From positions 1 to 21,202 of IMG/VR virus record IMGVR_UViG_3300031753_000043: a DNA stretch of 21,202 nucleotides; one strand, 5' to 3'. Origin of the DNA: a virus. A program made the translations under genes and the position numbers. Below are positions 2,854 through 12,969 of the stretch, in pieces. The notes beneath the pieces are model-generated. The model was not told where the DNA came from. It did not search any database and saw only the letters and a list, made by a program, of their open reading frames with translations. The stretch's first letter is position 1; every line of letters starts with the position of its first letter.

Positions 2854-3218
2854 TTGACGACGCCCTGCAATCCGCGATCGAGCGGGCACGAGCTCGAGGC
2901 CATGCCGGCGCGGAAGCTGCAGCCGAGCACGCGGATCTGGTTCATTCGAATTGGACAGAACGCGCGATCACGTATATCCACCTCTACGCGCGTCAGCATC
3001 CGTACCTGCGATGCGAACACTGCCGTGTCTGGGCCGAACACGATGGCCTTCCTCCGCCCACGGATAAGAGGGCATGGGGATGGGCAATTCAGGAAGCCAG
3101 GCGCCAAGGGCTGATCGAGCCTGCAGGCTACGAGGCCGCCATCTCGAGCAATGGCAGTCCCAAGGTGCGCTGGAAATCGCTGGTCTACAGCACGGGGTAC
3201 AGGGAGGATATCGAATGA
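2850..3218 (+). CDS. Winged-helix-like phage early protein
   Basis: A 122-residue protein. Residues 1-30 are Ala/Arg-rich helix; residues 38-75 (RAITYIHLYARQHPYLRCEH, then WAEHDGLPPPTD) and 76-112 (WGWAIQEARRQGLIEPAGYE, then SSNGSPKVRWKSLVY) follow a recurrent phage pattern in which an 'AWG..M..A...GLI...GY....SSNGSPK..W.SLVY' segment looks like a winged helix. DNA binding in replication or regulation is likely but not shown. The start overlaps the previous stop; AGGGAGG near its end serves the next gene. Confidence 0.78.
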   Translation: MIDDALQSAIERARARGHAGAEAAAEHADLVHSNWTERAITYIHLYARQHPYLRCEHCRVWAEHDGLPPPTDKRAWGWAIQEARRQGLIEPAGYEAAISSNGSPKVRWKSLVYSTGYREDIE

Positions 3219-3901
3219 CAGCTCGCAAACTTCATTTTCAGCGTATGTTGCGCTGCGGCGAAAGCGATGTGGCGTCGCATCCTCTGTTCCAAGGGGAAGG
3301 GGGCGGTTCGATTCCGACCTCGCCGCTCCAGTTTACTGTGATCCCGATCAACAAAGAGACAGCATTCCGAATCTACCGCGAATACCACTATTTGGGACGC
3401 CAGGACTTCGTTAATGTGGCAAGTTTTGGCGTCATGTGGGAAGGCTGCCTATACGGTGCGATCACTTTCGGGCCACCGGGCGCCAAGGAAACGGTCAAAG
3501 GTATTTTCGATACTGAAGAGCAATCTGGATTCTTTGAAATCAAACGATTGGCTATCGATAATCGATTTCCTAAAAACAGTGAGTCGAGGCTGATTCGGAT
3601 CGGTATTAAACTACTGCGACAACGTTTCCACGTCTTGGCCCTGCTAACTTACGCTGATCCGTCCGTGGGGCATGACGGGACTATTTACAAGGCTTCTGGC
3701 TTTCGATATCTGGGCCTGAGCGACAAGCGCCGCGAATTTGTGAAGGATGGGCGCGTGAAACAGCGCGGCGTTTCCAAAGGCGAAAATGGGAATTGGCGCG
3801 ACAAACCGCGCAAGCATGTCTTCGTCCGGTCCTTTGACCCCAGTATTGTGACAAATACCTTGCAACTGGGTTATCTCAAACGCAAGCAGGCTATAGCATG
3901 A
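3215..3901 (+). CDS. Mom-like GNAT-fold acyltransferase, putative DNA modification
   Basis: A 228-residue protein. The start at 3215 overlaps the previous stop and follows AGGGAGG. Motifs in order are HYLGR (58-62), GAITFGPPGAK (81-91), FEIKRLAIDN (107-116), SESRLIRIG (122-130), and TYADPSVGHDGTIYKASGF (145-163) followed by YLG. This set ('HYL.R', 'E..RL....P.N.ESR', 'YAD...GH.GT.Y.A..F.Y.G') is that of the phage Mu Mom family, GNAT-fold enzymes that modify adenine in phage DNA and protect it from restriction. The length is close to Mu Mom. An early-operon position fits protection of replicating DNA. The C-terminal 60 residues are very basic. The exact modification and whether the target is DNA cannot be read from the sequence. 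Confidence 0.8.
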   Translation: MTARKLHFQRMLRCGESDVASHPLFQGEGGGSIPTSPLQFTVIPINKETAFRIYREYHYLGRQDFVNVASFGVMWEGCLYGAITFGPPGAKETVKGIFDTEEQSGFFEIKRLAIDNRFPKNSESRLIRIGIKLLRQRFHVLALLTYADPSVGHDGTIYKASGFRYLGLSDKRREFVKDGRVKQRGVSKGENGNWRDKPRKHVFVRSFDPSIVTNTLQLGYLKRKQAIA

Positions 3902-4205: not shown

Positions 4206-4871
4206 TTGCCGCGTGCACCGAATTACTTCAAGTTCCACCTTGGCGACTATGCCAAGGATTGCGAAGACCTAACCCTGCTCCAGCATGGGGCCTACCTAGC
4301 CCTAATTCGCTGGTACTACGCCACAGGCCGGCCAATTCCCGCCGATGGCGAACGCATCTATCGACGCTGCCATGCGCTCTCAGGCGAAGAAAAAGGCGCA
4401 GTTATGTTTGTTTTAACTGAGTTTTTCCAGCTTGACGGCCCGGTTTGGCGGCACCGCAGAATTGACCGCGAACTCGCTGAATGGTCAGACCGAAGTGACG
4501 AAGCTTCAGCGTCTGCCAAGGCAAGATGGAATAAAATCAACGATAATGGCAATGCGAACGCAATGCGAACGCAATGCGATGGCAATGCTAACCAGAACCA
4601 AGAACCAAGAACCAGAAGGTTAGGTTCTGTATCAGAGAATACGTTACGTCCGGTGCGGTTACGCGCTACGCGCTTACCGCCGGACTGGCGCCTACCCGAC
4701 GAATACAAAGACTTCGCCGTCAAAGTCCACCACCTCGAGCCCGAGCGTGCCGTCCGCGTATCCTTGGCCTTCCGCGATTATTGGATCGCCAAACCCGGGG
4801 GGCAGGGAACAAAGCTCGACTGGTTTGCGACGTGGCGAAACTGGATACGCAAGGAGACCCACGATGCTTGA
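4206..4871 (+). CDS. YdaU/DUF1376-like replication protein with DnaT-like C-terminus
   Basis: A 221-residue protein. The TTG at 4206 is chosen because GGAGG lies just upstream and the conserved domain begins at once: NYFKFHLGDYAKDCEDLTLL (6-25), QHGAYLALIRWYY (26-38), and IDRELAEW (86-93). This is the DUF1376/YdaU domain of phage replication proteins. Residues 114-140 are a low-complexity Asn/Arg linker. Residues 157-215 (LPPDWRLPDEYKDFA, then FRDYWIAKPGGQGTKLDWFA and WRNWIRK) match the C-terminal DNA-binding segment of DnaT-like primosomal proteins. It probably recognises the origin and recruits the host replicative helicase. The linker DNA carries iterons, as in lambda O. It has its own promoter and structured leader. 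Confidence 0.85.
   Translation: MPRAPNYFKFHLGDYAKDCEDLTLLQHGAYLALIRWYYATGRPIPADGERIYRRCHALSGEEKGAVMFVLTEFFQLDGPVWRHRRIDRELAEWSDRSDEASASAKARWNKINDNGNANAMRTQCDGNANQNQEPRTRRLGSVSENTLRPVRLRATRLPPDWRLPDEYKDFAVKVHHLEPERAVRVSLAFRDYWIAKPGGQGTKLDWFATWRNWIRKETHDA
4525..4628 (+). other. Candidate replication origin (iterons inside the initiator gene)
   Basis: An AT-rich stretch at 4525-4548 is followed by four tandem 11-bp units: GCAATGCGAAC (4549-4559), GCAATGCGAAC (4560-4570), GCAATGCGATG (4571-4581) and GCAATGCTAAC (4582-4592). Three 7-bp units of the AAGAACC type follow (4593-4613), and then an inverted repeat AGAACC/GGTTCT (4608-4613 with 4623-4628). Because 11 is not a multiple of 3, the repeat is not conserved in the protein, so selection must act on DNA. 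Lambda has its origin in the same place, between the two domains of O. Confidence 0.65.
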
Positions 4872-7763: not shown

Positions 7764-8144
7764 ATGGCAAACGTAACATTCAAGGCGCCTGCAGGACTGT
7801 TCCAAGTCCTGGGGCGGAACGGGGTGTTCTATCCCGTTATTAATGGTGTGGTGACTGTGCCTGAAGGCGCAGCCCCGCCCGCACTGTCTGGCAACGCGCT
7901 CTTGCGCGGCTACAATCTTGGCGTCGGTGCGACAGGTGCAACAGGCCCTGTCGGCAATACCGGCGCGGTTGGAGGCACGGGCGGAACAGGCGGAACTGCC
8001 GCAGCCGGCGTCACAGGCGTGACAGGACCCACGGGCGCATCAGGCGGATCGAATACCGGCAACACGGGTGCCACTGGTGCAACGGGTGCCGGCACGACGG
8101 GCGCAACTGGGTCAACTGGGCCAACTGGCGCAACCGGACCATAA
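7764..8144 (+). CDS. Collagen-like structural protein 1
   Basis: A 126-residue protein. Residues 1-51 ([20 protein letters not shown] and so on, ending LLRGYN) are a small N-terminal domain shared with the next two genes. Residues 52-126 are Gly-x-y triplets dominated by GAT, GPT, GNT and GGT. GAGG lies 9 bases before the ATG. Threonine in the third triplet position is typical of bacterial and phage collagen-like fibres. It may trimerise to form a fibre attached to the virion through the N-terminal domain. Its position between terminase and portal suggests a head-associated role, which is inference. Confidence 0.82.
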
Positions 8145-8156
8145 CGGGACACTGCG

Positions 8157-8537
8157 ATGACTACAGACAATGTAACGCTACAAGCGCCGGCATCGCCGGC
8201 ACCGCAGCAAGTCCTGGGCAAGGACGGTGCGCTCTACCAAGTCGCATCCGGCCAGCTTGTGATCAGTGCTTACGCTGCCGATGCAAGCCTGCTGTTCGCG
8301 GGCTACAACCAAGCGACCGGAATGACTGCAGCCACAGGCGCGACTGGGATCACGGGCGGAACTGGGATCCAAGGCGCAACCGGAAATACGGGCGCAGCGG
8401 GCGCTGTCGGCGGGACTGGCGGGACTGGTGGAACTGGGGGCACGGGCGGCACTGGCGGAGTAACCGGCGCAGCGGGTGCAACGGGATTGAATGCAGCGAC
8501 AGGCGCAGCGGGTGCGACTGGCGCAACAGGAGCATAG
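8157..8537 (+). CDS. Collagen-like structural protein 2
   Basis: A 126-residue paralogue of the preceding gene. The N-terminal domain ([20 protein letters not shown], then [12 protein letters not shown] and LLFAGYNQ) aligns with gene 1 at 'VT..AP....VLG.(D/N)G..Y.V..G...........LL..GYN'. The C-terminal half is Gly-x-y triplets with a run of consecutive GGT triplets. The two genes are separated by only 12 bases. Duplication followed by divergence of the N-terminal domain, with the triplet region free to expand and contract, explains the pattern. Confidence 0.82.
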
Positions 8538-8539
8538 CA

Positions 8540-9013
8540 ATGGCGAACGAAGGCCCTCCGTTTTCTCAGAACATCGCGATTCAATCGCCGCTGCCGCAGA
8601 ATCCGAATGTCACCCTGCAACCGCCGTCTGGCATTAATGTGCTCGTTGCGGCCGATGGCAAGACGTACACGAGTTCGGGTGGCGTGTTCGTGCTGCCCTA
8701 TCTCGCGCTCGGGCGCGGCGGTGTGGCTGGCCTGCTCGAGCAGGGATGGAATCAGGCTGATGGCCCAGTCGGCGCGTTTGGGGCTACCGGCGCGGTCGGA
8801 ACTACGGGCGTTACTGGCGGCTCTGGCGCGGTCGGCAATACGGGCAGCACGGGTGCGACTGGCGCGATCGGTGTCAATCCGAATCCGACGGGTGCGACGG
8901 GTGCAACCGGATCGGCGAGCACGGGCGCTACCGGGGCAGTTGGTGGAACGGGCGGCACTGGATTTGCGCTGCCTCACTTCCCGCCTAATCTCGGCACCAA
9001 GACGGCGGTCTGA
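8540..9013 (+). CDS. Collagen-like structural protein 3
   Basis: A 157-residue protein and third member of the set. It has an extra N-terminal segment ([20 protein letters not shown]), then the shared domain ([20 protein letters not shown] and LLEQGWNQ) and Gly-x-y triplets from about residue 75, interrupted by VNPNP. Unlike its relatives it ends with a non-collagen tail, [14 protein letters not shown], that could act as a cap or trimerisation tip. It begins 2 bases after the previous stop. It is most likely a virion fibre or decoration protein. Confidence 0.82.

Positions 9014-9251: not shown

Positions 9252-12969
<3,718 letters not shown>

Follow-up and report, generated by a model that had tools for sequence, protein, structure and literature searches.

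Why should a phage gene carry, in the middle of its coding sequence, tandem repeats whose period breaks the reading frame? The question is raised by a virus record of 21,202 bp (the window, meaning the whole stretch of DNA analyzed), in which a sequence-only reading had placed four 11-bp iterons inside a replication gene and proposed them as a candidate origin resembling that of phage lambda. If this proposal is true, the sequences of many uncultured phages would reveal their origins directly, and a natural series for testing joint change of initiator specificity and origin sequence would be available in the iteron classes described below.

Results

The gene encodes a two-domain DUF1376 protein

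The gene occupies positions 4206-4871 on the plus strand, starts with TTG and encodes 221 amino acids. Its protein comprises a predicted winged helix (residues 6-95), a linker (residues ~112-150) and a C-domain that we label DnaT-like (residues ~153-218). Residues 6-91 match Pfam DUF1376 (PF07120), a domain of unknown function, with E = 1.2e-24 and 86.9 bits against a curated cut-off of 30.1, and PHROGs annotates relatives as replication initiation or primosomal proteins. No match to the lambda O Pfam family was reported for the window protein, for which DUF1376 was the sole family reported at E up to 1; by family, the protein belongs to DUF1376 and not to lambda O. AlphaFold2 assigns a pLDDT above 90 to both domains and below 50 to linker residues 122-145, and the linker is predicted to be disordered. 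The predicted N-domain has a winged-helix layout, and the best PDB fold matches of the whole model, among them ORC2 and Rep initiators of plasmids, are winged helices with weak Z scores of ~5-6; Foldseek returned zero significant matches with the whole model.

The sequence-only reading had set the repeats in the linker between a DUF1376-like and a DnaT-like domain. The first domain and the low-pLDDT linker are borne out, while a DnaT-like C-domain appears in some relatives and has no match in the window. The DnaT domain PF17948 is matched by the C-domain in 3 of 28 family members (best E 3.4e-5) but not by the window protein's own C-domain, which thus resembles DnaT through some relatives only. 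Against the PDB, the C-domain found no chain by sequence and only weak fold matches; DnaT is unsupported by fold, an absence that is uninformative. DnaT of E. coli forms filaments and binds single strands with two bases to each subunit (PMC4132743). One related gene (L502, 670-1773) has a C-domain 77% identical to that of the window, a different N-terminal half and no strong 11- or 7-bp arrays.

No helicase or loader gene is in view within the 21.2-kb window. A Mom-like DNA modification gene lies at 3077-3898, two genes upstream of the initiator gene. Elsewhere, a 12-bp tandem array of 16 copies with open frames on both strands occupies the contig end (1-195), and several Gly-X-Thr-rich, collagen-like frames occur amid structural genes (7764-9013 and 11227-12969).

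Two out-of-frame arrays lie in the linker

TRF finds 4.0 copies of the 11-bp unit GCAATGCGAAC at 4549-4592 on the plus strand (starts 4549, 4560, 4571 and 4582), 340 bp into the coding sequence. The best 33-nt segment at lag 11, at 4545, has 28 of 33 matches and is a unique maximum, the strongest 11-bp periodicity anywhere in the window. This score was equalled in 0.02% of 5,000 synonymous-codon shuffles that held the protein fixed (P = 2e-4), so the four tandem repeats are real. As had been claimed, the reading frame changes at each copy; the repeats encode residues ~115-129, inside the low-confidence linker.

Directly behind the iterons, and overlapping the last of them by 3 bp, is a second array that the sequence-only reading did not contain (4590-4615, plus strand; TRF, shuffles). 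Its AACC cores start at 4590, 4596, 4603 and 4610, a spacing of 6-7 bp, and it too is out of frame, the period of neither array being a multiple of three. Its lag-7 score of 16/18 was reached in 0 of 5,000 synonymous shuffles, and an AACCNNN array is also present in relatives. There it has a GC content of 34-36%, against ~45% in the surrounding DNA; in the window the value is 45%. The second array is thus only mildly AT-rich.

The AT-rich stretch said to adjoin the repeats exists 5' of the iterons (4530-4548, unstranded; 25% GC in the 20-nt bin 4530-4549). An inverted repeat, CAGAACC/GGTTCTG, likewise exists around the end of the second array (4593-4629, unstranded; arms 4593-4599 and 4623-4629), and the DNA fold of this region has z = -2.83; since it was not seen in the relatives' sequences inspected, we dropped the hairpin as a general feature. 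The only DnaA box in the window is a single one-mismatch match, not above chance and away from the locus. In three relatives (L095, L116 and L186), GATAGTAGTAGTAA runs occur downstream of the second array; they are not general in the family, and we take them to resemble the DnaA-trio sequence.

The arrays are conserved at the DNA level

Relatives of ~30-50% identity were gathered by protein searches, using peptide patterns of which one in six was linker-derived in the first search and which came from the C-domain only in the second. In 31 non-redundant genes, the excess of linker autocorrelation over synonymous shuffles was concentrated at lags 7, 14, 11 and 22 and was smaller at other lags. 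Of 52 genes, 32 had a best segment surpassing 99% of shuffles at lag 7, 30 at lag 14 and 25 at lag 11; among the other lags from 4 to 13, such genes occurred only at 8 and 12 (four genes each) and 6 (one gene). A significant lag-6/7 or lag-11/12 array was found in 46 of the 52 non-redundant relatives, and the remaining six were borderline, with arrays discernible by eye. Relatives without repeats, which had been named as evidence that would refute the proposal, were therefore not encountered among them.

Conservation at the level of DNA, as the sequence-only reading had argued, is evident in the codons. At identical amino acids in 1,925 gene pairs, codons were identical in 85% of cases in the iterons and 91% in the second array, whereas the flanking domains in those pairs reached 52-60%; restricting the count to matching amino acids tilts the linker comparison toward conserved DNA, but the domains were handled identically. 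At 30-50% protein identity, the iteron sequence varies by lineage while the layout stays. We would warn that DNA, and not protein function, shapes the linker peptides of DUF1376 proteins.

Blind motif scans recover the same gene family

We also scanned viral contigs for array patterns without reference to genes; about 120 matches were listed per scan, and the counts are therefore samples. Among the matches listed, (AACCNNN)x4 fell in DUF1376 genes in 97 of 120 cases, all 97 in sense orientation, and (ACACNNN)x4 in 48 of 120, again all in sense (48/48). The iteron patterns GCAATGC(N4)x3 and CGTTCAAC(N3)x3 fell in such genes in 83 of 119 and 73 of 120 listed matches, respectively. A control pattern, (AAGGNNN)x4, gave 0 of 120 among the matches listed, and of the 120 matches listed for (AACCANN) in bacterial genomes, which served as a further control and were mostly identical-copy microsatellites, none lay in a DUF1376 gene. 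In the scans, the arrays were restricted to initiator-type genes. The DNA upstream of the scan-selected AACC heptads, which had played no part in the selection, showed a periodicity at lag 11 (z = 21.7, n = 52), followed by lags 22 and 33. Spacers were identical in only 4 of 97 (AACC) and 7 of 48 (ACAC) arrays in DUF1376 genes, compared to 12 of 23, 36 of 72 and 86 of 120 at other loci, which sets the arrays apart from slippage microsatellites.

Iteron classes and a second cluster

The iterons are lineage-specific 11-bp units (GCAATGCGAAC, AACCCAGTCGGTT, CGTTCAACGNN, AAATCAGAANN and others); the GCAATGCGAAC motif of the window also occurs in L445, L202, L002 and others. Classes defined by regular expressions left 20 of 60 genes unassigned and were for this reason replaced by k-mer similarity. 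Iteron similarity correlated with N-domain identity at a partial rho of 0.33, the largest value among 500 permutations being 0.15, and had no association with C-domain identity (0.01). These correlations suggest that iteron sequence tracks the DUF1376 domain, which may partly reflect physical linkage; the link is a tendency, because a given iteron class can be found with divergent N-domains and also outside the DUF1376 family, in another Pfam family. In this other family, Lin1244_N (L800 (1462-), L813, L781 and L685), the linker carries class A/C iterons (CGTTCAAC or GCAATGC), followed by a 5-bp AAAGK array in place of AACCNNN. Class A (GCAATGC) iterons with an AAAAG-type array also occur at five loci with no ORF of 50 aa over them (L669, L687, L713, L748 and L757), which may represent a non-coding form of this module. 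Of eight class C arrays, three contain iterons in both orientations, mostly spaced by 11 or 22-23 bp.

Between -1.5 and +2.1 kb, the 7-mers of the linker iterons recur at one other place, nt 120-180 of the gene, in DUF1376 codons ~40-66; the share of positions there is 0.21, versus ~0.07. In a separate, independent sample, 8 of the 30 class A genes and none of the 29 class C genes had class A motifs at these codons (p = 0.003); in the reverse test, class C motifs were present there in 5 of 29 versus 2 of 30, which is not significant. The contrast between the classes confines this second cluster to a subset of lineages. A tentative counterpart in the window, GCGAACGCAT...GCCATGCGC (4348-4379, plus strand), covers DUF1376 codons ~48-58, in agreement with its place in relatives. 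It is only suggestive, as the signal of the window by itself is weak (shared 6-mers: 7, versus 4.0 expected; p=0.43).

Cultured phages and genome context

Paracoccus phage Pkon1 has the iteron class of the window, and 11-bp and/or 7-bp linker arrays are present in Vibrio, Methylophilaceae, Leptolyngbya, Shewanella, Rhizobium and other phages. In the cultured phages, the neighbors of the gene include a dnaB-like helicase, dnaC, istB, P and a dnaA-like gene. The lambda-O-like position that had been proposed is right, and the gene stands beside dnaB, dnaC/istB or P genes in cultured relatives. The linker repeats of ydaU from the Rac prophage and of Acetobacter phage phiAX1 fail the same array test. 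In two of four complete circular genomes, Pkon1 (13,088) and ctTUS972 (32,010), the detrended cumulative GC-skew minimum lies inside the gene, and in the other two it lies elsewhere; this evidence is confounded, since skew also follows gene direction. The window's own skew turn, which the sequence-only reading had suggested looking for at the locus, is small and not distinctive.

Discussion

The comparative sequence analysis establishes the arrays, their DNA-level conservation, order and strand, their restriction to initiator-type genes among the scan matches and the association of iteron sequence with the DUF1376 domain. From these features we infer binding, melting, helicase loading and replication, and consider it quite probable that the linker of the DUF1376 gene is the phage's replication origin, organized much as in lambda. 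We propose that the winged-helix domain of the encoded protein binds the 11-bp iterons; as these lie about one helical turn apart, several initiator molecules could stack on one face of the DNA. The initiator complex might then open the short-period array next to the iterons. On the strand so exposed, DnaB could be placed by the DnaT-like C-domain acting with a helicase or loader. The role of the second array is the least certain step of this mechanism, given how mildly AT-rich it is. The presence of site and protein in one gene would result in their joint inheritance, so that binding specificity could drift while the spacing stays.

Alternatively, the protein or a phage repressor might bind the arrays to regulate its own gene or copy number, and the arrays would then not mark a replication start. 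All of the comparative evidence for DNA-level sites would fit such regulation equally well, as would the constant orientation of the arrays relative to the gene. We nevertheless regard it as rather improbable, given that the sites lie so far into the coding sequence, that the short-period array follows right behind them as in iteron origins with an unwinding element, that helicase and loader genes stand beside the gene in relatives, and that the GC-skew minimum falls inside the gene in half of the four genomes. It is very improbable that the arrays arose by neutral slippage growth of tandem repeats in a peptide-tolerant linker: the predicted disorder and the existence of 5-, 6- and 7-bp variants would suit such growth, but the copies are degenerate around an invariant core with seldom identical spacers, codon conservation in the arrays is well above that of the domains, unrelated iteron sequences share the 11-bp period, and the arrays favour one gene family. 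A constraint on the mRNA, as a regulatory RNA element, instead of on duplex DNA would agree with the sense-only second array but has hardly any likelihood, since Rfam gives no match, class C iterons can take both orientations within a single array, and similar arrays occur without a covering ORF (L669, L687 and L713).

If the linker serves as an origin, it may be one instance of a widespread, self-contained phage origin module, an extension that we put forward tentatively and consider possible rather than probable. Such a module would consist of a winged-helix gene (DUF1376 or Lin1244_N), 11-bp iterons of a few recurring classes in its own codons, a 5-7-bp array gripped as single strand by the initiator and, in some lineages, a matched cluster in the codons of the DNA-binding domain. 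Through this matched cluster, binding specificity and target could evolve within one gene.

In the open-access literature searched, we found nothing relevant joining DUF1376 to an origin, nor on ydaU or heptad origins; within that literature, DUF1376 is a family without a described origin. The ydaU gene of the E. coli Rac prophage shares the N-terminal DUF1376 family and is followed by ydaV, annotated as a putative replication protein; it differs in its linker, where repeats are not significant by the same test, and in its C-terminal half. For phage P1 RepL/oriL, an origin has been postulated within the initiator gene, and replication suffers when an AT-rich stretch is changed synonymously (PMC9948254). 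The protein there is a different one, and the term iteron is absent from that source. In RK2 TrfA/oriV, iterons lie by repeated 13-mers in an unwinding element that the initiator binds single-stranded (PMC4980987). The period is 13 in RK2 and 6-7 here, the initiator belongs to another family, and here the sites lie inside the initiator gene.

By analogy, the nearest known arrangement is lambda O/ori. The iteron units of lambda are ~18 bp long, and O belongs to another Pfam family. The lambda origin has tandem initiator-binding iterons in the middle of gene O, next to an AT-rich tract, with a helicase-loading gene alongside; there are four iterons in lambda and six in the Stx phages P27 and 933W, with a plain AT-rich tract (PMC7466680). 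The likeness to lambda and to these Stx phages resides in iterons that lie within the initiator gene, between the DNA-binding and C-terminal domains. The locus described here differs from lambda in having 11-bp units, a repeated 6-7-bp array and a protein of the DUF1376 family; some lineages also have a second cluster, within the codons of the binding domain.
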